Assembly (NCBI GenBank): GCA_030220185.1 | Contig: JASPKZ010010232.1 | Span: 1-64,000, forward strand | Origin: Diploptera punctata | Lineage: Eukaryota; Arthropoda; Insecta; Blattodea; Blaberidae | Direction of reading: 5' to 3' | DNA length: 64,000 nt | Shown: one piece after another, positions 2,105-64,000 of the stretch | Numbering within the stretch: position 1 is the first letter of the stretch | Layout of the letters: every line of letters begins with the position of its first letter | Position numbers and translations under genes: made by a program | The notes under the pieces: generated by a model | The model's database searches: none | Told to the model about the DNA's origin: nothing | What the model saw: the letters and a program-made list of their open reading frames with translations, nothing else

Positions 2105-2719
2105 ATATATATGTTTTGATTAAATAACCCATTTTTGTAATTCTGACGAAACATAAAAAATATTCTTTCCGATAATAGGTTATTGTGTTAGAATCTGGGT
2201 ATCAGTTCGATAAATAAGAACAATCTAAAATAGAATAAAGAAAATACAATTTACTCGCATCACGTACGTTCTGGGAATTATTTCAACAAAGTAAATGGAA
2301 AAGAAAACACTAAAATGAATCAAGCTATCCTTCGTTTGATTGAAACTATTAAACTAGATTAAGAAAACTTGTCTTGCTGCACAGAATCCGAGATCGATCT
2401 CTACCATTAAGCGGTTCTAATCTCAATTTCAGCTCAGGAGATGGCACTAACCACAATCCGTTCATCTTGTCCCAAGGCTTTCTTCTCTAAATACCTTAAA
2501 GGGGATTAATGGAACTTCGTTCAACTAAACTCAAGGTTCTCCTCTCGATATATCTATAGGAGACTAATTAAAGATACGCTCTCTAGATGATGGCACAATA
2601 AGAAATACGTATAAACCGAGAAGAAAATGTCATCTAAAATGAGAAAAAAAACATTATTTCGAAACCAATGTTGAAATACAGACAATTAGGCGAGAGAACT
2701 TGAAGGCTATATAAATAAT
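2105..2719. other. no recognised feature
   Basis: AT-rich sequence. I found no tRNA-like box, LINE motif or inverted repeat. Confidence 0.5.
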
Positions 2720-3309
2720 AGTTTTTAAAAACTAAAACAACACGCTTTATTAGAAAACCAAACTAAAAAATAAAAAATAAATAATGGTTTAAAAAATTAA
2801 AACAACACGCTTTATTAAAAAGCGAAGTAAAAAATGAAAAATAATTTTAGTTTCCAACACGCTTGGGATAAAATTAAACTGGTCAGCAAAAAAAAAAAAA
2901 TCATCTCCAACACATCTAGAATAAAACTAGAGTTATCTACAAAAAAGTAATTTTACCATCAAAAGCGAGGGGTGCTTTTTATCAATTAACATATTTGATA
3001 ATAAACACATATTGGTAAAAGTAAAGTCTCTAAGAAGAAAACTTAAAAACCATAAAAAGCACCCCGCGCTTTTGATGGTAAAATTATTTTTTGCAGATAA
3101 CTCTAGTTATATTCTAGATGTGTTGGAGACGATTTTTTTGTTGACAACTTTAATTTTATCCCAGGCGTGTTGGAAATTAAAATTATTTTTCATTTTTTAG
3201 TTCGGTTTTCTAATAAAGGGCGTTGTTTTAGTTTTTTAAACTATTATTTATTTTTTTATTTTTTAGTTCGGTTTTCTAATAAAGCGTGTTGTTTTAGTTT
3301 TTTTAAACT
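2720..3309. mobile_element. foldback (long-TIR) element, copy 1
   Basis: The two halves are inverted repeats of about 290 bp around 3010. AACAACACGCTTTATT near the left end is mirrored by AATAAAGCGTGTTGTT at the right, and TTTACCATCAAAAGCG by CGCTTTTGATGGTAAA. Both ends read AGTTT..AAACT. The terminal subrepeat is itself doubled on both sides, as in Foldback-type elements. It has no coding capacity. The second copy is at 11846-12420. Confidence 0.8.
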
Positions 3310-3349
3310 ATTACTTATTTTTTAAATTTTTAGTTTAATTGATTTCCAT

Positions 3350-5839: not shown

Positions 5840-7580
5840 GATTTGTTTTCACTGCAGTACGACACATTTAAATAAGCTGACATAAAATATTGAGTTTCGC
5901 TAATTTTAAGGGTTAAAATTATCGCTCTCTTCTCTATTCCTTTGCCAATGACCAGTAACCGAATTTTAAAAGGAAATTTGCATCCTTTACTGCATTAAGA
6001 ATTAATTATACTTAATTGCATTCAACATTTCAATATGTCTAAAGGTTAGATATTGTCTCTTTGAATGTAGAATGTACAAGGACGCTCGTTGCTCTACACC
6101 AACAAAAATATTTAGTTTTGACTCTGAACTTCAAATCGTTGCACGGTACCAATTTCAGATTTTGAATTTTTTATAAGTTTTCATTTGATATATTTTTTGT
6201 GGTTTATATAATAACATAAGGTAGGTCTAGATTATCGAAATTTGTGTCAAATTATATAAAAATGGTATAATAAAAACATATTTGGATGATAAAGGGAACA
6301 TAAATTAAAAACGGGGGAAAAACAGAAAGTTCAAAGTACAAAATCTATTTTAGACAGATACAAGCTCTTAGGTAGATTATTTCCTCTGATGTAATACAAA
6401 AAAAAAGCATTCCTTTCAAAATCCGGTCTCAACTCATTACACTTGTTTTTGATAACACAGTGGGTATTAAGAATGCTTATATTTTCTTCACTTAATATGC
6501 ATCAGGATTTAGACAATCATTCAATTGGAAGAAGAAAATTCCGAATCACGATCGCTCTTTTTTTACGCCAAAGTTTTGTTTGCATAACAACATAAAAAGT
6601 CTTTCACGCAGGTAATTTATCAGCTAGTCGAATTTTTGGTGCGATTTTGATTGTTAACGGAATGTCTCTGTTGTTAATTCAATCCTATATAGCCAGTTTC
6701 ATTGCGAGAAAACAAAAATGGCAGCTAGAGCAATATTGAAATTTCGACTTTTAGGTAAACCGAACTTCTGATTATTGGATTTCACCGATGTTTGGAGAAT
6801 ACCTGTCTAGTGTTATTTCAATGTCAAATACTAAGTTTCGTTCCTAATAACCGAAAATTGTGTCTGCTAGAGTGGTTTTTAAAATTTCGCTTCAGATTAA
6901 CCCCATTCCTAATGATTCAATTTTGGAGATAAAAAAGTTTATTTAAAAAAATATTATGTAGCGAGGAAAATATTTGCTGGATTGTTAATAAAATACATAG
7001 AACAATCAGAATTAAAATTACTTATAATCATGAATGGTACTCTGACAAATTAATAACTGAAGTGGAATGCAATATTCCTGCATCACAAGAATATTAAATC
7101 AAAATAGCATATCAAAATAACATTTTAATATTAACTGCAATTAAATATTGATATAATATTCAATTTAATATATTTACTTAATCATTCTATTGGAAGCACA
7201 GGATAAAAGTAAACGAATATTATGACAGATATAATGAAAAAACCGCCATTCAGATTATGATATTCATTTTACCATGGCTAGCATCATATTCCTGTAATAT
7301 GATTGAATTTGTGGTTTTAATTTTATTTTATTTACAGAGAGTAAATGAAAAATAAATGGAGATAGATCTGAGATATATTAATATGTTTTATTTACATACA
7401 ATTCAATTATATTATTGAAATATATGAATTTTGTTATTTTATTTAATGCCAAGTCTCATTTCAGCAATGCTCTTATAAAAGGCTAGAAATTTGAACATTG
7501 TAGTATAATGTACTTTTAATATTAAAAAAAAACATCCAATTTTCATGAAGATATGGAAAATAATGGAAAAATTAATTTGG
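5840..7580. other. gene-poor AT-rich stretch
   Basis: No ORF, tRNA-like box, LINE motif or long inverted repeat is recognisable. A segment near 6715-6920 (ATGGCAGCTAGAGC.., CTGCTAGAGTGGTTTTT) weakly resembles 20020-20160 and 62205-62225, hinting at an old dispersed repeat. Confidence 0.4.
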
Positions 7581-11615: not shown

Positions 11616-11845
11616 ATTCAATACAAATTTCATTTCTACAATTAAATAATATTTAAAATGCCTTAAGAGAATCAACGCGAAAACCACTGAGTTATCCAAC
11701 ACACAACCTACCAGGATTTATCCTAGATATTAATCATCTCATTAAACCCTTTTGTAATATTTCCTGTTATTCTCAAGGAGGCTAACGTATCGCCATAGCC
11801 CGAGGTAATATTAATTACGAAATCCTAGTACTTTAATAAATATTA

Positions 11846-12420
11846 GTTTAAAAAACTAAAGCAACACGCTTTATTAGAAAAACGAACTAAAAAATGAAAA
11901 ATAATTTTAATTTCCAGCACGCTTGGGATAAAATTAAAGTGGTCAACAAAAAAATCATCTCCAATACATGTAGAATAAAACTAGAGTATTCAACAAAAAG
12001 AAAATAATTTTACCATCAAAAGCGTGGGGTGCTCTGTATCAATTAATATATTGTATAATAAACAGATACTGGTAAAAGTAAAGTCTCTAAGAAGAAAATG
12101 TAAAATCATAAAAAGCACCCCACCCTTTTGATGGTAAAATTATTTTATTTTTTGTTGATAACTCTAGTTTTATTCTATATGTGTTTGAAATGATTTTTTA
12201 GTTAACCACTTCAATTTTTTCACAAGCGTGTTGGAAATTAAAATCATTTTTCATTTTTTAGTTCGGTTTTCTAATAAAGCGTGTTGTTTTAGTTTTTAAA
12301 AACTATTATTTATTTTATTGACCACTTTAATTTTATCCCAACCGTGTTGGAAATTAAAATTATTTTTCAATTTTTAGTTCGGTTTTCTAATATAGCGTGT
12401 TGTTTTAGTTTTTTTAAACT
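11846..12420. mobile_element. foldback element, copy 2
   Basis: Same family as 2720-3309. AGTTTAAAAAACTAAAGCAACACG at the left matches the inverted right end TGTTGTTTTAG.TTTTTTTAAACT, with the TACCATCAAAAGCG/CGC.TTTTGATGGTA pair around the centre at about 12085. The right arm carries a duplicated terminal module (near 12190-12310 and 12320-12420), so the arms are unequal. Confidence 0.8.
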
Positions 12421-12520: not shown

Positions 12521-12614
12521 TCCTCCGGGCCGGATTTGAACCAGCGACCTATGGATTACTGAAATTATATACCACTACAGTCCACCGCTCTACCAACTGA
12601 GCTCTTACAACGAT
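12521..12614 (-). tRNA. tRNA-Tyr(GUA)-like sequence with intron, acceptor arm broken
   Basis: On - , the D arm AGCTCAGTTGGTAGAGC, the anticodon stem-loop GTGGA-CTGTAGA-TCCAT (anticodon GTA), the T arm GCTGGTTCAAATCCGGC and the 3' end CCGGAGGA follow tRNA-Tyr. An intron of about 18 nt (TGGTATATAATTTCAGTA) sits one base 3' of the anticodon, where eukaryotic tRNA-Tyr introns lie. The 5' acceptor strand should read CCTCCGG but reads about GTTGTAA, and the A box starts with G instead of T. This is most likely a pseudogene or a tRNA-derived repeat. It adjoins repeat G. Confidence 0.65.
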
Positions 12615-13906: not shown

Positions 13907-14716
13907 AGAAAAATAACATTTATGTATAATGGGTTACATTTAAATTAAAATAAACAAAAATAAAATAAATTGTCTCTTAGGAATTTATATGTTTTTTTAA
14001 TGCCCCCACTTTGTCCTTTTAGACACTTCTGGTGTTCTCTCCTGGCAATGGGGTAATTGTAACCCACTTCTGAGGTTGGGGCGCCTGGAAGGCGGGGTTA
14101 CGTTGTCCCGATGATATGATGGGTGATGATGATGATGATGATGGTGCGCCAGGAGAGTCCCTAATCCTAAACTTAATCTAAAATGAATATGAATGATGAT
14201 GATTGCAATGGCCATATGATTTCGGGGACCGTTTTGGCCTTAAAGTTTTCCTGACATTTGTCTTACAGGTGAGGAAAAACGCCGATAAAAAACCTCACTC
14301 AGAAAAACTGCCCCGACCGGGGATCAAACCTGGGCTCGCTCCGTGGCAAGGCAGCACGCTACCTCGAGACCACAGCGGTGGACCAGGAATTTATATGTAG
14401 ACCCTATTACTCATTCATTTGCATACTCATTAATTTGTTTACATTCATACTGAAAATGCATTGTTTACTTTGTACATACATTGTATATTTCGTCTAATAG
14501 GTATTTATATATCATATTATTTTATATGCAGAAAAATAAAATTTATGTATATGTGTTACAAATAAATAAAATAAATTGTCTCAAAGGAATTTATGTGTAT
14601 TACTCTTTCATTTGTGTGCTCATTCATTTGTTTACGTTCATACTGAAGGTGCATTGTTTACTTTTACATACATTGTATATTTTGTCTAACAGGAATTTAT
14701 ATAATCATATTATTTT
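13907..14716. repeat. tandem duplication of about 200 bp, one copy carrying a SINE
   Basis: GCAGAAAAATAA.ATTTATGTAT..AAATAAATTGTCTC..AGGAATTTAT..CATTCATTTG..GCATTGTTTACTTT..ACATACATTGTATATTT occurs at 13907-14527 (interrupted by 13993-14384) and again at 14528-14716. The second copy shows the uninterrupted site CTCAAAGGAATTTATGTG. Confidence 0.75.
13993..14384 (-). mobile_element. composite SINE (SINE-A head + second body), copy 1
   Basis: On - it starts with the SINE-A head (B box GGTTTGATCCC) and the SINE-A middle through GGCCATATGA. It then switches to a different body: CTCTCCTGGCGCACC, (CAT)n, CCGCCTTCCAGGCGCC, TTGCCAGGAGAG, ending in an A-rich tail. It is flanked by a perfect 14-bp duplication AGGAATTTATATGT (13979-13992, 14385-14398), so the composite inserted as one unit. 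Confidence 0.85.
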
Positions 14717-24500: not shown

Positions 24501-24583
24501 CATTGGTCATATCAGAGGTGGATTCAGATATATGGAGCTGGGGTCCAAAATAAACTCTAATTCAACATTATTATCATCGTCAT

Positions 24584-24910
24584 GTCCACCGCTGTGGTCT
24601 CGAGGTAGCGTGCTGCCTTGTCACGCAGCGGGCCCGGGTTTGATACTCGGTCGGGGCAGTTTTTATGGGTGAGGTTTTTATCGGGGTTTTTCCTCACCTG
24701 TAAGACAAATGTCAGGAAAACTTTAAGGCCCAGACGGTCCCTGAAATCATATGGCCATCACCATCATCCTTATCATTATCATTCTTCACCGGTGTGGAAA
24801 GCAACGGGAAGCTACCACACCTACAATTCCCTAGTAAAGCTGCAAGCATAGCATGAAAATACTATGATTGCAGTGAAGGACCTGCCCTCGGGCAGAATTA
24901 CTATGGATGG
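24584..24910 (+). mobile_element. SINE-A, full length
   Basis: Complete from GTCCACCGCTGTGGTCTCG to GGGCAGAATTACTATGGATGG. The B box is weakened (GGTTTGATACT). It faces another SINE-A at 24974-25286 in inverted orientation. Confidence 0.85.
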
Positions 24911-25812: not shown

Positions 25813-25982
25813 TAATAACCATGTAACTCAGAAAGAGAAGTTTATTGCTAAACATAAGTCTATTCATGCTCATTATTTCTCCTTCGGAGAAGGTGTTAAC
25901 AATCTCCGGAAGTATCGTATCACAGATGTGTGTGGTGTGTTAAAACATTTTCAGATATGAAAATGACATTCCATCCTTTCAT

Positions 25983-26323
25983 CCATAGTAATTCTGCCCG
26001 AAGGCAGGTCCTTCACTGCAATCATAGCATTTCCCATGCTATGCTTGCAGCTTTACTACGGAATTGTAGGTGTGGTAGCTTCCCGTTGCTTTCCACACCG
26101 GTGTAGGTTGATGATGATGATGATTGCTAATGATAAGGATGTTTCTGAAGGCCATACCATTTCGGGGACCGTTTGGACCTTTAAGTTTTCCTGACATTTG
26201 TCTTACAAGTGAGGAAAAAACCCCGATAAAAACCTCACCCAGAAAAACTGCCCCGACCGCGGATCGAACCCGGGCCCGCTGCGTGACAAGGCAGTACGCT
26301 ACCTCGAGACCACAGCGGTGGAC
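25983..26323 (-). mobile_element. SINE-A, full length
   Basis: CATAGTAATTCTGCCCGAAG start to CCACAGCGGTGGAC end, intact B-box complement GGATCGAACCC. Confidence 0.85.
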
Positions 26324-26408
26324 AAAATGACACTAGTGGTATGATATTACCATAGGTATAGAAACTCATATTTTGATGAACGCTACGCGATTATCCTTAC
26401 ACCATAAC

Positions 26409-28020: not shown

Positions 28021-28279
28021 ATCCATAGTAATTCTGCCCGAAGGCAGTCCCTCTCTGCAATCGTAGCATTTCCATTGCTATGCTTGCAGCTTTACTAGGG
28101 AATTGTAGGTGTGGTAGCTTCCCACAACGGTTTGGGCCCTAAAGTTTTCCTGACATTTGTCTTACAGATGAGGAAAAACCCCGAATAAAAACCTCACCCA
28201 GAAAAACTGTCCCGACCAGGATCGAACCCGGGCCCGTTGCGTGACAAGGCAGCACGCTACCTCGAGACCACAGCGGTGG
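28021..28279 (-). mobile_element. SINE-A with internal deletion
   Basis: Ends intact, but the (GAT)n tract and part of the middle are missing: GCTTCCCACAACGGTTTGGGCC jumps from the 3' body directly to the centre. Confidence 0.8.
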
Positions 28280-31178: not shown

Positions 31179-31350
31179 TTCGGGAGGGACTTTAAGCCGT
31201 GGGTCCTGGATCTGACGATTTTCAGGCTCGTAAAAGAACCGTAAGCTTGAATAAAGATGAACATAAACAAAATTTTCGACCTTCATCATCCTTAGTTGCC
31301 TACTAGATGTCTCATTGGGTCGGTATGTTGGCCGAATACAATTCATGACA
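31179..31350 (+). mobile_element. SINE-D, 5'-truncated
   Basis: Begins within the body at TCGGGAGGGACTTTAAGCC and continues GGTCCTGGATCTGACG, TTTTCAGGCTCGTAAAAG, CTACTAGATGTCTCATTGGG, abutting SINE-A at 31354. The head is missing, as in a LINE-style 5' truncation. Confidence 0.75.
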
Positions 31351-31353
31351 TCC

Positions 31354-31841
31354 ATCCATAGTAATTCTGCCCGAAGGCAGGTCTTTTACTGCAGTCATGG
31401 CATTTTCGTGCTATGCTTTGCAGCTTAACTAGCGAATTATAGGTGTGGTAGCTTCCCGTTGCTTTCCGCACCGGTGAAGAACGATAATGATAAGGATGAT
31501 GATGATGATGGCTGGATGATTTTTGGGGACCGTTGGGCACTAAGTTTCCTGACATTTGTCCTACAGGTGAGGAAAAACCTCCAAAAATTAAAAAGATAAC
31601 TGCAATTAAGAAGAATCGCAGGGAAAATGGTAGGCTAAGATTGAATTTCATAGGATGAAATTTCGGGAAGGAATAAGTCAAAATGTTGAGGGGATGACTA
31701 TTAATCCTAATAATGTTCTAATTCAATTTAGTGAAAGGCTATAGAAAAAAAGCTCACCCAGGGGCCTATCACGACCGGATATCGAACCCGGGCCCGCTGC
31801 GTGACAAGGCAGCACGCTATCTCGAGACCACAGCGGTGGAC
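31354..31841 (-). mobile_element. SINE-A split by about 170 bp of unrelated sequence
   Basis: The 3' body and middle occupy 31354-31582 (to GGTGAGGAAAAACC), and the head 31753-31841 (CTCACCCAGG to GCGGTGGAC). The insert 31583-31752 has no known motif and both junctions are A-rich, so no clean duplication is visible. Confidence 0.75.
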
Positions 31842-31850
31842 AACAATTTG

Positions 31851-31926
31851 CTGTCTCGACCGGGAATCGAACCCGGGTCCGCTGCGTGACGAGGCAGCAG
31901 CCTAACTCGAGACCACTGCGGCGGAC
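31851..31926 (-). mobile_element. second, solitary SINE-A head
   Basis: TCGACCGGGAATCGAACCCGG, GCTGCGTGACGAGGCAGC and CTCGAGACCACTGCGGCGGAC form a tRNA-like head only, ten bases from the complete head of the preceding copy. Confidence 0.75.
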
Positions 31927-32295
31927 AATTCATGACAAGTGTAAGGATCACCGAGATACGTTTGTAACTCGCAAGGAATACTGTAACACTTTTTATAACT
32001 GTAGACTGACATTCTGATTATTTACATTTTATACTGGAAACTCCTCCAATGATTAGTTCTGGAATCTGGCACAGTATACTGAACATGTATGTGCTATGCA
32101 TTGCGAAATTCCGGTTTGTTAATGGTATTCATGGCAGAGCATCCTGTCCCCTGTAACAGGGAGTTAGGCTAAGTAGTTATACATGCAAATGTGGTTCTTA
32201 GTGATGAACCTCTTTTCACAATTTAGCGCCTACGTCAAATTCCTTCTTCTTTAAAATTCTTCTGAAAGAGTCCCAGATAAATTTCTAGATTTTAC
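31927..32295. other. no recognised feature
   Basis: Unassigned, except CCTGTAACAGGGAGTTAGGC near 32150, related to 22240. Confidence 0.4.

Positions 32296-37539: not shown

Positions 37540-37629
<90 letters not shown>
37539..37629. repeat. (AAT)n microsatellite
   Basis: About 30 uninterrupted units, at the 3' end of the LINE-B tail that follows on the - strand. Confidence 0.9.
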
Positions 37630-39224: not shown

Positions 39225-39611
39225 ATTTTTTTTGCGAATGCCCCAGGTTGTCTTTCGACATTCCTGGTGTTCTCTCCTGGCATGACGTACTTGTAACCCA
39301 CTTGTGAGGTTGGGGCGCCTGGAAGGCGGGGTTACGTTGCCCCGTTGATATGATGGGTGGTGATGATGATAGTGGTGCACCAGGAGAGTCTCTAATCCTA
39401 AGCTTAGTAAGATGAATATGAATGATGATTATTGCAATGGCCATATGGGTTCGGGGACCGTCTGGGCCTTAAAGTTTTCCTGACATTTGTCTTACAGGTG
39501 AGGAAAAACCCCGATAAAAACCTCACCCAGAAAAACTATCCTGACCGGGGATCGAACCCGGACCTGCTGCGTGACAAGGCAGCACGCTACCTCGAGACCA
39601 CAGCGGTGGAC
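39225..39611 (-). mobile_element. composite SINE (SINE-A head + second body), copy 2
   Basis: Same architecture as 13993-14384. Perfect 13-bp duplication ACTTATTGAAATA (39212-39224, 39612-39624) and an A-rich end (poly-T at 39226-39233 on +) bracket the whole composite. The two copies are close to identical in order and length. Confidence 0.85.
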
Positions 39612-39667
39612 ACTTATTGAAATATTTATAGTATAAAAACATATTTTGTTCATTGAAGAGTGCCATG

Positions 39668-44160: not shown

Positions 44161-44321
44161 AACAAAATAAATAAATAAGTAAATAGATATCACAACATAC
44201 TAATCGGTAATAAGGATACCATGAGCTCGTTACATCGAAACACTCATTCAACATCCCTGAACAACCAGTGACCGTTTGTCGATGTAGTTATATACAATCC
44301 TGTATATATTTCAAAGCAGTA

Positions 44322-44395
44322 GATCGATGATTCAAGTCCATGTGGGTCAGGATTTCTAAACTGACCTAAACCTTCTGGCGGCTCTACACGTCTGT
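44322..44395 (+). mobile_element. SINE-E fragment, old
   Basis: GATTCAAGTCCATGTGGGTC (B box region), GGATTTCTAAACTGACC, CCTTCTGGCGGCTCTA: 70 bp of the SINE-E head/body boundary. Confidence 0.55.
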
Positions 44396-45825
44396 GTCGT
44401 TTAATTAAATGATTCATTCAAGTTTATTAAGTCCTATGATAATCTTCGTCGAATCCATAAAATGAGTCACAAAGACCTATTTGTATAGTTCATAATATTC
44501 AATATTGTTTTTCATTATCATGGTTACGAGATAAATTGATTTTTCGGCTTACGTAAGGTCAGTCAAATTTATTTCTGGGACCATTGCATGCCATTTTCAC
44601 AAAACATGCATCCTCGAATGACTATATTGATTAGAAATTAATACTCGCCGGTTTCAGTATATAATGTAACGTATAGGCCTATAAGGTTATAAATTATGTT
44701 TTCTTTTATTTTTCTTTTGGCGTTTTGCGATCGTGACTTTATATCTTGACGTAATTCTTTTAAGTTTGTATTGCGTGATTTTCAATCTGATATTAAAGCG
44801 TCTATAAATAACAGTTAAATAAAGTATGCCATCAGAAAACGGAACCAATAGTGACTAGCGAGTAATTGGACGAGATGTTTTGGACCAATATAACTTAACT
44901 GAATGAACAAAAAATGGACGTACAGTTAGGAGACGGAATAATAAATTGGACGAAATATATTGGACTAAAAATTGAGGGAATGCGATTGGACGAAACTTCT
45001 GCTAACCGTATGTATGCATATAACTCTGTAGGTCGCATGTTTATATGTTTCATTAATTTATAGTATGATGTGGGATCGTAGGGTCACTTCTTTAAGTTTA
45101 TAATTTAATGTTCCTTACATTATGAAGGCCTATATTAAAACATATATTAGAATGTTTTTATAATCTACTTTTACATAGTATTTTTATTGTGATGTTTCAA
45201 TTACAATTCCATACTTTATACTATAATGTTTTAAAGTTTCTATATTTTAATTTGTGGCGATGAACCGGCATTCTCATATGTTTTGAATAACATAATTGCT
45301 AATTTTATTATGTTTGTAATTTTTCAGAGTTTGCAAATTTATAAATTGCTCATACTTTATATTAAAATTATTTAACGTTTCTACATTTTATTTTGTGGCC
45401 TTGTGTTAGGAATAATAAGCTTATACTTCCTTTTTTGTGTCGTGATGTGATTACGTTGTGTTTTAGCTTGAAATGTTGTATTCATAAGTTGAATAGCAGT
45501 TACTTATGTCTTACTGTTACGATATAAATGAATATTTAAGTTTTTCAGTTGTTTTGTATTTCATGTGCATATACTGTATTGTAGCATTTTTTATTTTTGC
45601 TCTTTATATCGTGATGTTTGTGAGATTAATTTCTTTTAATTTTTAGGCTATGTAAACTTTTTAACTGAACTATGCTAATTTGAATTTATATTTTTTATAC
45701 TTTTCTATAATTTGAAAGTATTAAATTCATGTTCATATATATTGAATTTATAGTTGTCGCATCATGTATTGTATAATTTACTGTTTATGCTGAGCTGAAC
45801 AACTTGCTGTGGGGGTATTGTTGTT

Positions 45826-46200
45826 GCAGCGACGTCAGGGTTCAGGTGAGCGGTTCAGACAGAAGAACTGTACATTTTCTAAACATACCGAACATTAAGA
45901 AAAATACAGAAAGACTGGAATTGACGACTTCGAGGTCACCGTTTCTGGATTAATTTATACATTTTCTTTCCTGCAGTTGTATTAGCTCTCCTACCTGATT
46001 TATTTAACTTCATTCATTTCTCTACAGCGGGTTGTTCAGTTCAGTATATAACAATAGTTGTTTGTTGTATGTATGATTTGATTTGTACTTTATATTATCA
46101 TAATGTAATATGTATTTAATTTTTTTGTGTAATTCTACTATACGCTGGTTGAATGGAAGTGAAGGCCTTATGGCCTTAACTCTGCCAGCTAAAATAAAGA

Positions 46201-46243
<43 letters not shown>
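45826..46243 (+). mobile_element. LINE-B 3' end inserted in superrepeat unit 1
   Basis: CGCTGGTTGAATGGAAGTGA, AGGCCTTATGGCCTTAACTC, TGCCAGCTAAAATAAAG and (ATT)n to 46243. TATTGTTGTTG before and TATTGTTGTG after are a likely target duplication. The 5' boundary is uncertain. Confidence 0.6.
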
Positions 46244-46268
46244 TGTTGTGCCTTATATTACAATGTAG

Positions 46269-46308
46269 TTGGAAGTTTTTAACATTTGTTTATCCAGTTT
46301 GTATCACC
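46269..46308 (+). other. exon-like 40-mer, diverged founder copy
   Basis: Preceded by TATTACAATGTAG and followed by GTAAGA. It matches the array 40-mer at roughly three quarters of positions (TTGGAAGTTTTTAACATTTG..TATCCAGTTTG) and has exactly the same length. Confidence 0.55.
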
Positions 46309-46656
46309 GTAAGAGTCTCATCACACTAATACATGCTTAAGAACATAAAACAATGCAACGACTGTAAGGTTATATATTATGCTTTTTTAATTTGACACTT
46401 CTGCGATCATGTCTTTATATCTCGACGTAATTTTTATAAGTTTGTATTTTGTAATTTTTAATTAAATGTTAAGTAATCGATAAATAACAAGTAATAAAAC
46501 ATATTGTCGATTACGTAAAGAATTTCTGTGAAGTGAATGCCTTCTGTTATTTTACGTAACCTACGTAACGAGGGGCAACGTCGAAGACATAAAATGGATC
46601 ACAATCGCTTGTTATTTGTATTGTTTACATGTTTTTAATAATGCTATTCACTAACA

Positions 46657-47584
46657 TGGTTACGAGGTTAATTATTTTTAGGTTTAGATAAGGTCGGTCA
46701 AAATTTTATTTCTGGAATAGTTATACGCCATTTTTTACCTGTAAAATTAATCAGGATAATTTACTGTAAATGAACATTTGCTGGTTTTTGAAGGTTAGAG
46801 TTAATTTCAGCATTCTATCAATAGCGAATAATACGTTATTGAGCGAAATAGTTTGGAAGACATTGATAAAAAAATAATTTAAACTTGAATGACGAAAAAA
46901 GCAAATTGGACTAAATAACATATTGGAAGAGAAAACAATTGGTTGGAAGGTAACTAGACGAAAATTCTGCTAACTGTAAGTAAGCATATAACTTTGTAGA
47001 TTGTATGTTGACATATTTCCTTAATCTATATTACGAGATATATAAAATCACTTAAGTTTGTATTTTAATGTTCATATACCAATATGCCTCCTCGAACTTC
47101 CAGGAAGATTAGAAGTGAATATTTTCTGGTTTATGAGAGTTACAGTATTCTATTAATAGCAAATAATATGTTATTAGGCGAGATATTTTTAGGCGAAAAT
47201 CTAAATGGACTATTAAAATTGGATGCAAAGTTAATAAAAGAAAAAAATATATACGACTAAATAAAACATTGGACCAGAAAAGATTGTAAGACATCTGATT
47301 TGAGGAAATTTCTGCACATTAAATATTTTTAATTTATCAAATAGAATTGAGTATATGAGAAACAATTGGTATGAACATGTTAAAAGAATGCCTATAGATA
47401 GAATCCCTCAGCTGTTATCAAAGTATAAACCAATAGGACATAGATAGAAGTGTTGGACGCCCATTTAATAGATGGGAATATTCATTAAATCCCCTTGATG
47501 ACAAAACAGGTCAAAAGGCCTAATTTAATTAAATAGAAGAAGAAATATATACACACACATAACCTAATCCGTATGTTTATATGT

Positions 47585-47627
<43 letters not shown>

Positions 47628-48620
47628 TAAAATATTGTAATATATTTTACGGTTATAATGTATTTTTTACGTACTTTGTATTCTAATATTTTTAATTTTA
47701 CAGAGTTTATAAAATATTTTGATGCTTTATGTTATAAAGATAAAAACATTCTATATTTCAGTTCTTTATGTTGTATTCTCTTAAATTTAGAATAATATAC
47801 TTAATTTTGTTATGTGATATTTCAGGTTGAACTGTGATGTTCATAAATTGGAAAAGCAGTTTAACTTTTACTGTTATATTATGAATTTCTAAAACTTTTC
47901 AATGTGTTGTATTTCATGTGCATATATTATGAATACTGTGTTTTATTTTTGCTTTATATCTTGACATTTGTAATTTTGTTTTTAATTTGTAGACCTATTG
48001 TGAACTTTCTATCTGAACCATATTAATTTTAATTTCCTATGTAATTTTTTTTTTTACTTTTCAGAAATTTGAATACATTAAGTTTATATACCTTTTAATT
48101 CATTTTTGCAGTCTGTACGAAACATAATGTATTATAAAGTTGTGATTTATGTGTATAAAGGGCTATGTTTTAGGTTGCACTTGATATTATCTTATGGTGT
48201 TTGCATGCATTTTCTTAAAAGTAATTTGAAGTTTTTAACATTTATTTATCCAGTTTGCAACATGATAAGTTTCTGAATTCCGTTTCCTTTTATCCTCATC
48301 ATAGTGATACAGATTTAAGTGTAACATTTAAAACATTGTTTTAAGTTCATAAATTATACTTTTTTATGCCGATACTGTGATCATATCTTCATATGTGTTA
48401 TTTTATAAGTTTGTATTTCGTAATTTGTAATATGATATTATACCGTCTATAAGTAACAATTAAATAAAACATATTGTCGATTTCGTAAATAATTTATATG
48501 AAGTGATCATATTGTTTTATTTTACGTAACCCACGCAACGTGGATTAAGTCCAAGCCATAAAATGCATCACAACCACCTGTAATTTGTATTGTTCACAAT
48601 TTTTAATATTATTTATCACT
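46657..48620 (+). repeat. 2-kb superrepeat, unit 2
   Basis: Starts CATGGTTACGAGGTTAATT, has AGTTATACGCCATTTTT, AGCGAAATAGTTTGGAAGAC, GAAGATTAGAAGTGAATATTTT, TTGTAGACCTATTGTGAAC. Its 40-mer (about 48218-48262) has lost the donor (CATGATAAGT). It carries a LINE insertion at 47345-47530 and (TA)n at 47588-47621. Confidence 0.75.
47345..47530 (+). pseudogene. LINE C-terminal fragment
   Basis: MRNNWYEHVKRMPIDRIPQL, LSKYKPIGHR, stop, VGRPFNRWE-like in another frame, LIKLNRRRN and a GAAGAAG end: the R-M-P-x-x-R-I-P and GRP..RW signature of RTE-like elements. Confidence 0.6.
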
Positions 48621-49464
48621 AACATAATTACGAGGTAAATTAATTTTCAGGAGTATGTAAGGTCGGATAAACTATTATTTTTGGGACAGTTATACGCCAT
48701 TTTTGCCTCCTCCAGTGACCAGAATAACTGTATAATAATATTTTCAGGTTTATGAGAGTTAAAGATAACATCAATTATCTACCAATTTCGAACAGTGGGT
48801 TATTGGGCGAAGTAGTCTGGACGAAATTGATAACACGGATTTAAAGAACAGAAAAGTAAATTTGACTAAATAACATAATGGGCGGAAAGTGACTGGACAT
48901 AAATTCTGTTACATGTACTTATGCTTATAACTTTATATTTGAATGATTTAAATGATCTTGATATGTTTAAAATATACTTTGTTACCTTATGTTATAATCA
49001 AATTAAGTTTATATATGTTAGTTTGTGATCTTGTGTTCTTATAAGTTAAGAATAATATACTTCCTCATTTTGTTTTATGTATTAACATGAACTGTGGTCC
49101 CATTAGTTAGGAAAGCAGATTCGTAGCTTTTACTGTTATATTGATGGATTTGTGAAGTTTTACAGTTAATTGTATTTTATGTGCATGTATTATGAAATCT
49201 GTGTTCTATTTTTGCTTTATGTCTTGATATTTGTAATTCTGATTTTAATTTGTAGACCTATTGTGAACGTTGTATCGGAACAACATTAATTGTATTTTCC
49301 ATTTTTTTTTACTTTTCAATAATTTGAATGCAATAAGTTTATATATTTCTCATTTAGCTATCTCTATCACATAATATAATGTATTATACAAGTTAGTGAT
49401 GAGTGTAAATATATTTTTAGGATGCAGTTTAAATTATATTAAGATATGTGTTTGTAATTTCTTT

Positions 49465-52400
49465 CAATGCAGTTTGAAGATTTTGACATTTGTTATCCAG
49501 TTTGCAACATGGTACGTTTCTGCATTATGTTTTTTTATATTTAACGTAGTGATATATATTTAAGTGTACACTTTAAAAGACCGTTTAATTATAAACATTA
49601 ACTTTCTATTTTATTTTAACTTTACTGTGATCGTTTCTTCATATCAAATTTTATTATATAAGTATGTATTTTCTTTCAATTAAGGTTGAAGATGTTGGCA
49701 TTTGTTTAACCAGTTTGCAACATGGTAAGTTTCTGCATTTTTTTATAGAAGTGATATATATTTATGTGTATAATTTAAAAGAAAGTTTAGTTACAAAAAT
49801 TAACTTTTTTCTTTTGATTTTTGACTTTACTGTGATCGTTTCTTCATATCAAATTTTATTATATAAGTATGTGTTTTCTTTCAATGTAGGTTGAAGATGT
49901 TGGCATTTGTTCATCCAATTTACAACATGGTAAGTTCCTGCATTTTTTTTATTTTTATCGTAGTGATATATATTTATGTGTATAATTTAAAAGAACGTTT
50001 AGTTATAAAAATTAACTATTTTTTTATATTTTTAACTTTACAGTGATCATTTCTTCATATCAAATTTTATTATATAAGTATGTATTTTCTTTCAATGTAG
50101 GTTGAAGATGTTGGCATTTGTTTATCCAGTTTACAACATGGTAAGTTTCTGCATTTTTTATTTTTATCGTAGTGATACATATTTATGTGTATAATTTAAA
50201 AGAACGTTTAGTTATAAAAATTAACTTTTTTTTTATTTTTAACTTTACTGTGATCGTTTCTTCATATCAAATTTTATTATATAAGTATGTATTTTCTTTC
50301 ATTATAGGTTGAAGATTTGTCTATCCAATTTGCAACACGGTAAGTTTCTGCATTTTTTTTATTTCTATCGTAGTGATATATATTTACTTACTTAATCACT
50401 GGCACTATCGAACCCGTAGGTTCATGGCCGCACGGACATAAGCTCTCCATACATCCCTATCCTGAGCTAATGCTTTCCAATCATTCCCTCTATAATCTAC
50501 TTCCCTCAAATCATAGTTAATGTTATTCTCCCACCTCATTCTTGGTCTACCAACTGGGCGTTTTCCCTCTGGCTTTCCTACAAGAACCTTCCATGCAAGT
50601 CTTTCATTCCCCATACGTGCAACATGTCCTGCCCATCGCAGTCTACGAGACTTAACAGTTCTTATTAAATCTGGCTTCCTATAAAGACCATGTAGTTCAT
50701 TGTTATGTAGTCTTCTCCATTCACCTGTCTGTTCATCTCTCTTTGGTCCAAAAATTTTCCTAAGTACTTTATTCTCAAATACTTGTAATCTCCTTTCCTC
50801 CCTTAAAGTAAGAGTGCATGTTTCGCACCCATATAATATAACTGGTAGAATAATAGTTTTATATATTTTCAGTTTAACGTTTTTTGAAAGGAGTTGGGAC
50901 ATCAAGAGTCTCTGCAATGCATAATAGCACGCATTTCCAGAATTGAGCATATGTTTAATTTCTTTGTGCATCTCATTCCTATTTGTGATTATTGTTCCTA
51001 GGTATTTGAATTCATCCAGATCCTCAAAATTTCCCTCATTTGTCACTAGCTGTCCATTTCCATTATTTAATGAATTTCTACGTGTGACCATATATTTAGT
51101 TTTATTGATATTTACTTCTAGCCCTAATTTCTTAGTGTTACTCAACAGTGTGTGCGTGTTGTCCTTTAGTATCTCCTCGCTATCGGCCAACAATACTACA
51201 TCATCAGCATAAACTAACAGCTTATTAATACCATTCAGTTGTAAGCCTTCCTCATTCTCTAAAGATTTAATGGCATGCTCTAGTACAAAATTAAATAGTA
51301 GAGGAGATAGTGCATCTCCTTGCTTCAACCCATTCTGGATTTCAAAAGTGTCCGAAAATTGTTTGCCCACACGCACCCTAATATTTGTGCCATTTAGATA
51401 CATTCGTATAAGTCTAACTAACTTTTTAGGAATTCCGAACTCCATCAGGATACTATATATCTTCTCCCTCTTAATTGAATCATATGATTTTATGTGTATA
51501 ATTTAAAAGAACGTTTAGTTATAACAATTAACTCTTTTTATTTTTAACTTTACTGTGATCGTTTCTTCATATCAAAGTTTATTATATACGTATGTATTTT
51601 CTTTCAATGTAGGTTGAAGATGTTGGCATTTGTTTATCCAGTTTGCAACTTGGTAAGTTTCTGCATTTTTTATTTTTATCGTAGTGATATATATTTATGT
51701 GTATGATTTAAAAGAACGTTTGGTTATAAAAATTAACTTTCTATTTTATTTTAACTTTACTGTGATCGTTTCTTCATATCAAATTTTATTATATAAGTAT
51801 GTATTTTCTTTCAATTAAGGTTGAAGATGTTGGAATTTGTTTAACCAGTTTGCAACATGGTAAGTTTCTGCATTTTTTTAATCGTAGTGATATATATTTA
51901 TGTGTACAATTTAAAAGAACGTTTAGTTATAAAAATTAACTTTTTTCTTTTGATTTTTGACTTTACTGTGATCGTTTCTTTATATCAAATTTTATTATAT
52001 AAGTATGTGTTTTCTTTCAATATAGTTTGAAGATGTTGGCATTTGTTCATCCAATTTGCAACATGGTAAGTTCCTGCATTTCTTTTATTTTTATCGTAGT
52101 GATATGTATTTATGTGTATAATTTAAAAAAACGTTTAGTTATAAAAATTAACAATTTTTTTATATTTTTAACTTTACAGTGATCATTTCTTCATATCAAA
52201 TTTTATTATATAAGTATGTATTTTCTTTCAATGTAGGTTGAAGGTGTTGGCATTTGTTTATCCAGTTGGCAACATGGTAAGTTCCTGCATTTTTTATTTT
52301 TATCGTAGTGATATATATTAGGTGTATAATTTAAAAGAACGTTTAGTTATAAAAAATAACTTTGTTTATTTTTAACTTTACTGTGATCGTTTCTTCATAT

Positions 52401-53950
52401 CAAATTTTATTATATAACTATGACTTTCTTTCAAGGTAGGTTCAAGATATTGGCATTTGTTTGTCCAGTTTGCAACATGGTAAGTTTCTGCATTTTTTTC
52501 TATTTTTATCGTAGTGATATATATTTATGTGTATAATTTAAAAGAACGTTTGGTTATAAAAATTAACTTTCTATTTTATTTTAACTTTACTGTGATCGTT
52601 TCTTCATATCAAATTTTATTATATAAGTATGTACTTTCTTTCAATTAAGGTTGAAGATGTTGGCATTTGTTTAACCAGTTTGCAACATGGTAAGTTTCTG
52701 CATTTTTTTAATCGTAGTGATATATATTTATGTGTACAATTTAAAAGAACGTTTAGTTATAAAAATTAACTTTTTTCTTTTGATTTTTGACTTTACTGTG
52801 ATCGTTTCTTCATATCAAATTTTATTATATAAGTATGCGTTTTCTTTCAATGTAGGTTGAAGATGTTAGCATTTGTTCATCCAATTTGCAACATGGTAAG
52901 TTCCTGCATTTCTTTTATTTTTATCGTAGTGATATGTATTTATGTGTATAATTTAAAAGAACGTTTAGTTATAAAAATTAACTATTTTTTATATTTTTAA
53001 CTTTACAGTGATCATTTCTTCATATCAAATTTTATTATATAAGTATGTATTTTCTTTCAATGTAGGTTGAAGATGTTGGCATTTGTTTATCCAGTTGGCA
53101 ACATGGTAAGTTCCTGCATTTTTTTATTTTTATCGTAGTGATATATATTTAAGTGTATAATTTAAAAGAACGTTTAGTTATAAAAATTAACTTTTTTTTT
53201 ATTTTTAACTTTATTGTGATCGTTTCTTCATATCAAATTTCATTATATAAGTATGTATTTTCTTTCAATGTAGGTTGAAGGTGTTGGCATTTGATTACCC
53301 AGTTTGCAACATGGTAAGTTTCTGCATTTTCTTATTTTTATCGTAGTGATATATATATTTATGTGTATTATTTAAAGGAACGTTTAGTTATATAAATTAA
53401 CTTTTTTTTTATTTTTAACTTTACTGTGATCGTTTCTTCATATCAAATTTTATTATATAAGTATGTATTTTCTTTCAATGTAGGTTGAATATGTTGGCAT
53501 TTGTTTATCCAGATTACAACATGGTAAGTTTCTGCATTTTTTTATTTTTATCGTAGTGATATATATTTAAGTGTATAATTTAAAAGAAGGTTTAGTTATA
53601 AAAATGAACTTTTTTTTTTTCTATTTTTGACTTTACTGTGATCGTTTCTTCATATACAATTTTATTATATAAGTATGTATTTTCTTTCAATGTAGGGTGA
53701 AGGTGTTGGCATTTGTTTATCCAGTTTGCAACATGGTAAGTTTGTGCATTATTTTATTTTTATCGTAGTGATATATATTTAAGTGTATAATTTTAAACAA
53801 CGTTTAGTTATAAAAATTATTTTTTTTTATTTTTGACTTTACTGTGATCGTTTCTTCATATCAAATTTTATTATATAAGTATGTATTTTCTTTCAATGTA
53901 GGTTGAAGATGTTGGCATTTGTTTATCCAGTTTGCAACATGGTAAGTTTC
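49465..53950 (+). repeat. tandem array of a 208-bp cassette with exon-like 40-mers
   Basis: Seventeen cassettes, spacing 202-212 bp, with a LINE-A insertion between the fifth and sixth. Each reads: branch-like TTTTTAACTTTACTGTGATC, TTTTCTTTCAATGTAG, a 40-mer, GTAAGTTTCTGCATTTTTT, TATCGTAGTGATATATATTT, ATAATTTAAAAGAACGTTTAG. 40-mers start at 49473, 49685, 49890, 50101, 50308, 51613, 51820, 52026, 52237, 52440, 52650, 52856, 53066, 53274, 53484, 53696 and 53902. All have AG immediately before; 16 have GTAAGT after, the first GTACGT. The one at 50308 is 32 nt and the first 39 nt; the rest are 40 nt. One reading frame is open through a single 40-mer (VEDVGICLSSLQH), but joining two puts TGA at the junction (CAT GGT TGA). 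Confidence 0.9.
50392..51488 (-). mobile_element. LINE-A, young 5'-truncated insertion with intact RT 3' half
   Basis: On - the frame is open from the truncation point (about 51488, before SYDSIKREKIYSILMEFGIP) to the stop at 50405, about 360 codons. It carries QNGLKQGDALSPLLFNFVLE (RT motif 4), LLVYADDVVLLADS (YADD, motif 5), FKYLGTIITNRNE, VILYGCETCTLTLREERR, GEWRRLHNNELHGLYRKP, RRLRWAGHVARMGNERLAW and GRPRMRWENNINYDL. The N-terminal RT with the first catalytic aspartate and any endonuclease are missing, so it cannot mobilise itself. The first ATG at 51443 is only internal. The 3' tail is GTGATTAAGTAAGT. Flank duplication is short (TTTA). RTE-like by its C-terminus. It lies antisense to the 40-mers. 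Confidence 0.85.
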
Positions 53951-54303
53951 TGCTTTATGTTTTTTTTTACATTTATAGTAGTGATAAATATGTAAGTGTA
54001 TAATTTATAAGAATATGTAATTATAAAGAATAACTTTTATTTTTTATTTTTTACTTTACTATAACCGTTTCTTCATATCTAAATGCTATTTTATTATTTT
54101 ATACGAGTATTTCATAATTCTGAATCTGATATTAAAGCGTCAATAAGTAGCAATTAAATGAAAGATATTATCGATATTGTGAATCATTTTATGAAGCGAG
54201 TGCCTTTTATTATTTTACGTAAAACTCGCAATGTGGAAGCTATAAAATTAATCGTAACTGCTTCTAATTTGTATTGTTCACAATTTCTAATTTTGTTTTT
54301 CAG

Positions 54304-54928
54304 TAACATGATGAGGTAAATTTACTTTTAGGTTTATGTAAGGTCGTATAAAATGTTATTTTTGGGACAGTTATACGCCATTTTTGCATCCTCCACTGAT
54401 CATTATAACTATACATAAACATTTGCTGTATTTTAGAGTTACAGCTAACATTAGCATTTTACAAATATCAAACAGAACGTTTTGGACGAAATTCATAAAA
54501 CATATATTTAAAGGACAGAAAAGTAAATAGTACTAAATAACATAATGGACGTAATGTGATTGAAGAAGAATTCTGTTAGACGCACGTATGCTTATAAGTT
54601 AGTATTTGTATGTTGATATATTTCCTTAATCTATGTTATGAGATATGTGAAATTAAGATTGTATATAATGTTCATAAACTATTATGACTACTCAAACTAT
54701 CTGGAAGATTAGAAGTAGATATTTGCTGGTTTACGAGAGTTACAGTAATTTACCAGAGCAAATATTGGACGATATATTTTTGGAGGAAATGCTAACTTCA
54801 CGTATAAGAGCGAACGCAAAATTAAAAATAAAACGAGAATATAGTAAATGAAACATTGGACGAGAAAAACAAAATGTACATCTAATATGAAGACATTTCT
54901 GCTAATAGTATGTATATATGCATGTATG
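54304..54928 (+). repeat. 2-kb superrepeat, unit 4, truncated
   Basis: GTAACATGATGAGGTAAATT, GGGACAGTTATACGCCATTTTTGCATCCTCC, AAACAGAACGTTTTGGACG, TGTATGTTGATATATTTCC, GAAGATTAGAAGTAGATATTTGC. It ends at SINE-E; the region that holds the 40-mer in other units is not present. Confidence 0.75.
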
Positions 54929-56486: not shown

Positions 56487-56660
<174 letters not shown>

Positions 56661-57607: not shown

Positions 57608-57940
<333 letters not shown>

Positions 57941-63645: not shown

Positions 63646-63686
63646 CTCGACGTTTCGTCTACTGCTGCGGTAGACATCTTCAGGAG
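63646..63686 (-). ncRNA. hammerhead-ribozyme-like motif
   Basis: On - : CTC-CTGAAGA-U, stem II GTCTAC/GTAGAC around CGCAGCA, GAAACGTC, GAG. Stem I CTC/GAG and stem II differ from the 28.8-kb copy at both partners while pairing is kept. Confidence 0.65.
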
Positions 63687-63972
63687 ATACTGCGTGCTCT
63701 CTGTGAACTCCTCAACAGTCGGCTGCAGACTGGCTGGTCGTTGGAAACTCCCTCCCTATTTATAGGCACGCCCCTGGTGGAGAGGCACTGCACAATACGA
63801 CAACGAAGCCTATGACTTCTGCTAGCGACAGCCTGGACAAAACAGCACGCAACACGGACCGCGCAGAAAACCGCCTCTCCACCAGGGGCGTGCCTATAAA
63901 TAGGGAGGGAGTTTCCAACGACCAGCCAGTCTGCAGCCGACTGTTGAGGAGTTCACAGAGAGCACGCAGTAT

Positions 63973-64000
63973 CTCCTGAAGATGTCTACCGCAGCAGTAG
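63973..64000 (+). ncRNA. hammerhead-like motif, truncated by the window end
   Basis: CTC-CTGAAGA-U-GTCTAC-CGCAGCA-GTAG: the mirror copy of 63646-63686; the GAAACGTC half would lie just past 64000. Confidence 0.55.

Follow-up and report, generated by a model that had tools for sequence, protein, structure and literature searches.

Seventeen exon-like tandem units in Diploptera punctata: very probably a local repeat that resembles exons by descent

Contig JASPKZ010010232.1 of the Diploptera punctata assembly GCA_030220185.1 carries a tandem array in which a segment of about 40 nucleotides, preceded by AG and followed by GTAAGT, recurs head to tail in 17 copies (c1-c17; donor scan and alignment). 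The array lies within the window, the whole stretch of 64,000 nucleotides (positions 1 to 64,000, forward strand) that was analysed. Very probably it is an ordinary local tandem repeat whose exonic look comes from descent: the copies would share their splice-like signals through having been made from one another and not through selection, and the array is probably not spliced in RNA. Three readings were offered in the original prediction, namely mutually exclusive coding exons, a non-coding or regulatory transcript, and a satellite that is exonic by descent. The third is supported by the block structure of the array, by older units, and by the fact that, of three relatives elsewhere, two have lost the donor.

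The array is detected by TRF at 49453-50386 and 51489-54084 with a period of about 210, and the scores of these two parts (1386 and 4061) are far beyond chance. Its components are:

49453..50385, plus strand: array part 1, copies c1-c5 (TRF, donor scan, alignment); the LINE cuts the c5 unit downstream of the donor
49512, 49725, 49930, 50141, 50340, plus strand: donors of c1-c5 (donor scan)
50386..51488 (borders approximate), minus strand: LINE fragment inside the array, with a Pfam RVT_1 match
51489..54084, plus strand: array part 2, copies c6-c17 (TRF, identity matrix)
51653, 51860, 52066, 52277, 52480, 52690, 52896, 53106, 53314, 53524, 53736, 53942, plus strand: donors of c6-c17 (donor scan)
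53902..53941, plus strand: exon-like 40-mer of c17, given as an example, flanked by AG upstream and GTAAGT downstream

The donor scan matched the predicted count of 17 cassettes; as also predicted, all 17 have the AG and 16 of 17 an exact GTAAGT, the exception being GTACGT in c1. The cassette does not have the fixed size of 208 bp originally described: donors are spaced 199-213 bp apart, with one gap of 1313 bp that is due to the LINE insertion. The 40-nt length stands for 15 of the 17 copies and fails for c1 (39 nt) and c5 (32 nt). Similarly, the described acceptor type holds for its AG and not for its context, which reads AATTAAG in c2, c7, and c11 and departs from AATGTAG also in c1, c5, c8, and c10. 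The sequence TATATAAG begins 30 bases upstream of the 40-mer in 14 of 17 copies.

In the LINE fragment, Pfam matches RVT_1 (PF00078, E 2.4e-22) to an open frame of about 365 codons. Among the 120 listed relatives of this frame (50408-51499), out of 5541 above threshold, 110 are proteins of Periplaneta americana, Blattella germanica, or D. punctata, and the remaining 10 are listed with no organism. The array continues in register past the LINE and is therefore older than the insertion.

Kinship among the copies is organized in blocks. Pairwise identity among 15 complete units, the LINE-broken unit being left out of the matrix, averages 89.2% (range 81-98%). Within c6-c13, units four apart are on average 95.8% identical (n=4; three pairs at 96.7-98.1%, one at 90.9%), whereas lags of 1, 2, 3, 5, and 6 give 88.0-89.3% and lag 7, a single pair, gives 91.8%. 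Three of the four c6-c9 units thus come back in c10-c13 at 96.7-98.1% identity, and the first three units of the array (the c1-c4 region) match the same recurring trio at 91.5-97.6%. Private changes are common to c2/c7/c11, to c3/c8/c12, and to c4/c9/c13, grouping the copies by their position in a four-unit block; corresponding units within these sets are 94.7-98.1% identical, against the all-pair mean given above. Because the copies share their changes block by block, the 17 kept signals stand for fewer lineages. Head-to-tail copies with block periodicity are the hallmarks of a higher-order tandem repeat. The array resembles local, low-copy tandem repeats of minisatellite type with higher-order structure in its head-to-tail arrangement, its 81-98% likeness between copies, its recurring blocks, and its setting in transposon-rich DNA. 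It may differ from abundant satellite DNA, which has many long arrays in the genome: a whole-genome search with 501 array bases, giving counts as lower bounds and skipping very common words, found the array solely at this locus.

The array lies inside an older unit of about 1.26 kb, with one half of that unit on either side. These halves, and relatives of the unit upstream in the window, are:

44444..44823, plus strand: fragments of still older units, with no recognisable 40-mer nearby
46235..47204, plus strand: old unit A; 40-mer at 46269-46308, AG kept, donor GTAAGA
47705..48945, plus strand: old unit B; 40-mer at 48225-48264, with AA at the acceptor and ATAAGT at the donor
48965..49671, plus strand: unit C, the left half of the array-bearing old unit; 75% identical to B 47705-48418
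53881..54795, plus strand: unit D, the right half of the array-bearing old unit; 74% identical to B (53881-54612) and 69% to A

Units A and B are 75% identical over 46365-46926, and A and D about 69-72%, the figure of 69% for A and the right half coming from a plain ungapped scan. An AAT/ATT microsatellite (46201-46241) lies at the left edge of A. Beside the still older fragments, the 40-mer search scored 20 (44200-44450) and 18 (44540-44720), both inside the background range of 180-base windows (median 18, maximum 29). The 501-base search of the genome (3.12 Gb in 10165 contigs) returned at least 12 matches, of which 11 are in the window (one of these in unit B) and one is on another contig, at C6630:272086-272194. 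The latter belongs to a diverged, interrupted copy of the larger unit, unit E (C6630:271391-272497), which borders on a run of N. In 20 kb around E, part of which is N, TRF detected no array of 208-bp units, and the open frames there look like mobile elements. When pieces of A, B, and D and of the array were compared with the next 40 kb of the array-bearing contig (C9698, 126,782 bases long; 64001-104000, including 5000 bases of N), none matched.

Outside the array the splice-like signals are less well kept. Unit E has its AG and has TTAATT at the donor; of the three relatives, B and E have lost the donor, B has also lost the AG, and A keeps both. As A retains AG-40-GTAAGA at about 72% identity to D, the ancestral unit probably had the pair already. 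We envisage an ancestral unit of about 1.26 kb that would have contained, by ancestry, a short stretch with the chance form AG-40 nt-GTAAGT. Within one such unit, about 208 bp including this stretch would have been amplified to 17 copies, partly as multi-unit blocks, by unequal crossing over or slippage, and the LINE would have inserted into the array later.

Two other views of the older unit bear on this account and would alter it little. The 1.26-kb unit could be a non-autonomous transposable element with the 208-bp array as its internal repeat, an idea compatible with the local-repeat explanation and which we regard as possible, if somewhat doubtful. The diverged, interrupted copy on the other contig speaks for it; however, the copies in the window are close together and in a single orientation, and no terminal repeats were identified among the 25 longest of 779 inverted pairs. 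A dead exon is unlikely: on this view the 1.26-kb unit would descend from a genuine gene, or from a transcribed non-coding RNA, that had a 40-nt exon, and after tandem duplication it would now be decaying. This would fit the AG-40-GTAAG common to A and the array, as well as the somewhat greater likeness of the 40-mer between old units (75-92%, versus 72-75% for the rest). Yet overlapping windows as conserved as the 40-mer or more so are numerous (43 of 882 for A-B, 255 of 943 for A-D, 111 of 856 for B-D, and 51 of 697 for B-C); the 40-mer is therefore mildly above average rather than an exceptional block. Moreover, the frame list for 42000-63900 shows no long open frame within units A to D, and a second exon was not identified.

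The strength of the splice signals was scored with approximate weights. These rate the donor as good, at 6.3 bits in 14 of 17 copies, and the acceptor as weak, with a median of 3.6 bits and four copies at 0.3 to 0.7. On the same approximate scale, the sequence outside the array has 167 and 189 acceptors of at least 2.6 bits per 59.3-kb strand and 12 donors at the level of the array in 2 x 59.3 kb. Nine of those 12 outside donors have an acceptor of that strength 20-300 nt upstream, and one of the 12 has such an acceptor 20-60 nt upstream. Close pairing of acceptor and donor is thus uncommon outside the array, a slight argument for a real ancestral exon; one ancestral event suffices to account for the acceptor-donor pairs of all copies.

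The original prediction proposed that substitution in the 40-mer and at the splice sites be compared with that in the spacer, and this comparison, one half of the refuting condition set there, goes against the exon reading, save for eight core columns. The main count used c2-c16, leaving out the edge copies c1 and c17; columns with letters in fewer than 80% of copies were dropped, and c5 was omitted from the downstream spacer. Changes per column are 0.50 in the 40-mer, 0.33 in the pooled spacer (upstream 0.245, downstream 0.38), 0.27 in the 22 splice-site columns, and 0.43 at acceptor positions -16 to -3. Compared with the spacer, the 40-mer shows no slower change (p 0.14, the direction being a faster 40-mer), and the 22 splice-site columns show no difference (p 0.84). 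With all 17 copies the values are 0.55 for the 40-mer, 0.54 for the spacer, 0.41 for the 22 splice-site columns, and 0.125 for the core (core one-sided p 0.08). The eight AG+GTAAGT columns show zero changes in c2-c16, with a one-sided p of 0.07 and a column-shuffle p of 0.02, both post hoc, in tests that take no account of the block structure among the copies; the core was chosen after the pattern was seen. Five of 162 placements of the AG+GTAAGT mask, the observed one included, are equally invariant. These eight columns are the sole hint of constraint.

The prediction had described the single 40-mer as open in one frame. Comparison of the three offsets does not bear this out across the copies, for no reading frame is open in all 17: stops fall in c2, c7, and c11 at offset 1, in c14 at offset 0, and in every copy but c10 (16 of 17) at offset 2. 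Copies c2, c7, and c11 share the in-frame TAA along with the AATTAAG acceptor. The further statement that two joined copies create an immediate TGA is correct from offset 0 and incorrect from offset 1, where the frame runs on through a pair of typical copies and meets its stop upon entry into a third.

Nor was a surrounding gene recognised, either among the eight frames scanned with Pfam or by eye among 91 frames of at least 55 codons at 42000-63900 and frames of at least 120 codons at 64001-104000, a search that small exons with long introns would escape. The Pfam scan covered eight of the 24 listed frames of at least 110 codons; two matched, both to RVT_1, and one of these is the LINE within the array. 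The frames judged by eye in the two regions look like pieces of mobile elements and simple repeats, among them one at about 74352-74909 that we take to be transposase-like.

Mobile and repetitive DNA is in general frequent around the array, the surrounding DNA being rich in transposons. Two near-palindromic stretches, 2711-3318 (608 bases) and 11835-12314 (480 bases), are about 84-85% self-inverted, 87% alike over most of their length, and foldback- or MITE-like. A 128-base inverted repeat with 100% identity (63659-63786 and 63873-64000) stands at the very end of the window. A short interspersed repeat family occurs in both orientations at 1750-2104, 14182-14383, 24583-24909, 25980-26324, 28127-28279, 31350-31842, and 39437-39612, its members mostly about 78-96% alike, with one tandem pair at 31772-31928 (TRF). 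AAT/ATT microsatellites of up to 99 bases are frequent across the window (TRF; e.g., 37540-37629, 56488-56586, and 57849-57939). Elsewhere, L009:3689-4015 and 6559-6834 hold an identical open-frame start twice, 2.87 kb apart and arranged as in an LTR retroelement, and the frame between these copies has what we take to be a CCHC-like motif. Further along the array-bearing contig, at C9698:64969-65971, a low-complexity stretch rich in Ser/Leu/Arg/Glu with several frames open is a simple repeat.

Searches for RNA elements were similarly unproductive at the array. Rfam gave zero matches at E <= 1 in 46200-54900, and folding of one unit per strand showed nothing unusual (z -0.71 and 0.05). At the gathering score, the single Rfam match in the whole window is a tRNA at 12529-12603 (minus strand, 36.8 bits), which may be a repeat derived from a tRNA. 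In viral_contigs, an exact 41-base spacer pattern had 0 matches. It is most improbable that the units are functional small-RNA, piRNA, or spliced-leader-like tandem genes. Their tandem arrangement, the donor-like GTAAGT, and the placing of TATATAAG ahead of the 40-mer would suit such genes, but there is neither an Rfam match, an unusual fold in the unit folded per strand, nor a slower 40-mer, and we know of no spliced leader in insects.

Comparison with known exon systems leads in the same direction. Like mutually exclusive exon clusters of the Dscam type, the array consists of tandem copies of a short homologous segment between AG and GT; unlike them, it does not keep frame and length throughout, its segment is not slower than the spacer, and no surrounding gene was recognised. 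Such clusters lie between constant exons of one gene and give one copy per transcript. PMC3228551 characterizes mutually exclusive clusters by similar exon lengths differing by multiples of three, a conserved reading frame, and matching splice-site patterns. Set against that description, the segments measure 40 nt in 15 copies, 39 in c1, and 32 in c5, every offset is stopped in some copy, and AG and GT are present in 17 of 17 within the array, with GT gone from B and E and AG from B outside it. The runs of very short exon-like segments also recall schistosome micro-exon genes; the very short exons of those genes are symmetrical according to PMC4350168, in contrast to a 40-nt segment that is no multiple of three and lies in no recognised gene.

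The reading as mutually exclusive coding exons is therefore not supported, given the absence of a common frame, two frame-breaking lengths, and the lack of a recognised gene in a limited search. More broadly, a working alternative-exon cluster, in which a long transcript crosses the array and takes one copy per transcript, whether coding or untranslated, is very improbable. It would account for the AG in 17 of 17, the GTAAGT in 16 of 17, and the core left unchanged in c2-c16 (shuffle p 0.02). Against it stand the lack of a common frame, two copies of 39 and 32 nt, a 40-mer that changes no more slowly than the spacer, weak acceptors (median 3.6 bits by the approximate matrix), and the absence of a recognised gene among the open frames inspected. 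The non-coding reading, taken as a conserved exon array, is not supported either, given a 40-mer that is not slower, splice columns at 0.27 against 0.33 in the spacer (p 0.84), and a donor lost in B and E. A putative non-coding RNA with constraint limited to the AG/GTAAGT borders, from which the spliceosome would pick one 40-mer per transcript or skip along the copies, is a very slim prospect as well; if true, it would be a young exon cluster from satellite-type amplification, with its borders selected and its exon content free.

The literature searched, consisting mostly of listings and the opening lines of abstracts, contained no published description of the array, which is weak evidence. 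As a local tandem repeat, the array shows that tandem copying can mimic conserved exon-like signals, since 17 copies here represent far fewer independent lineages. If RNA showed splicing at these borders, the array would instead be an exon cluster that arose out of a repeat of satellite type.
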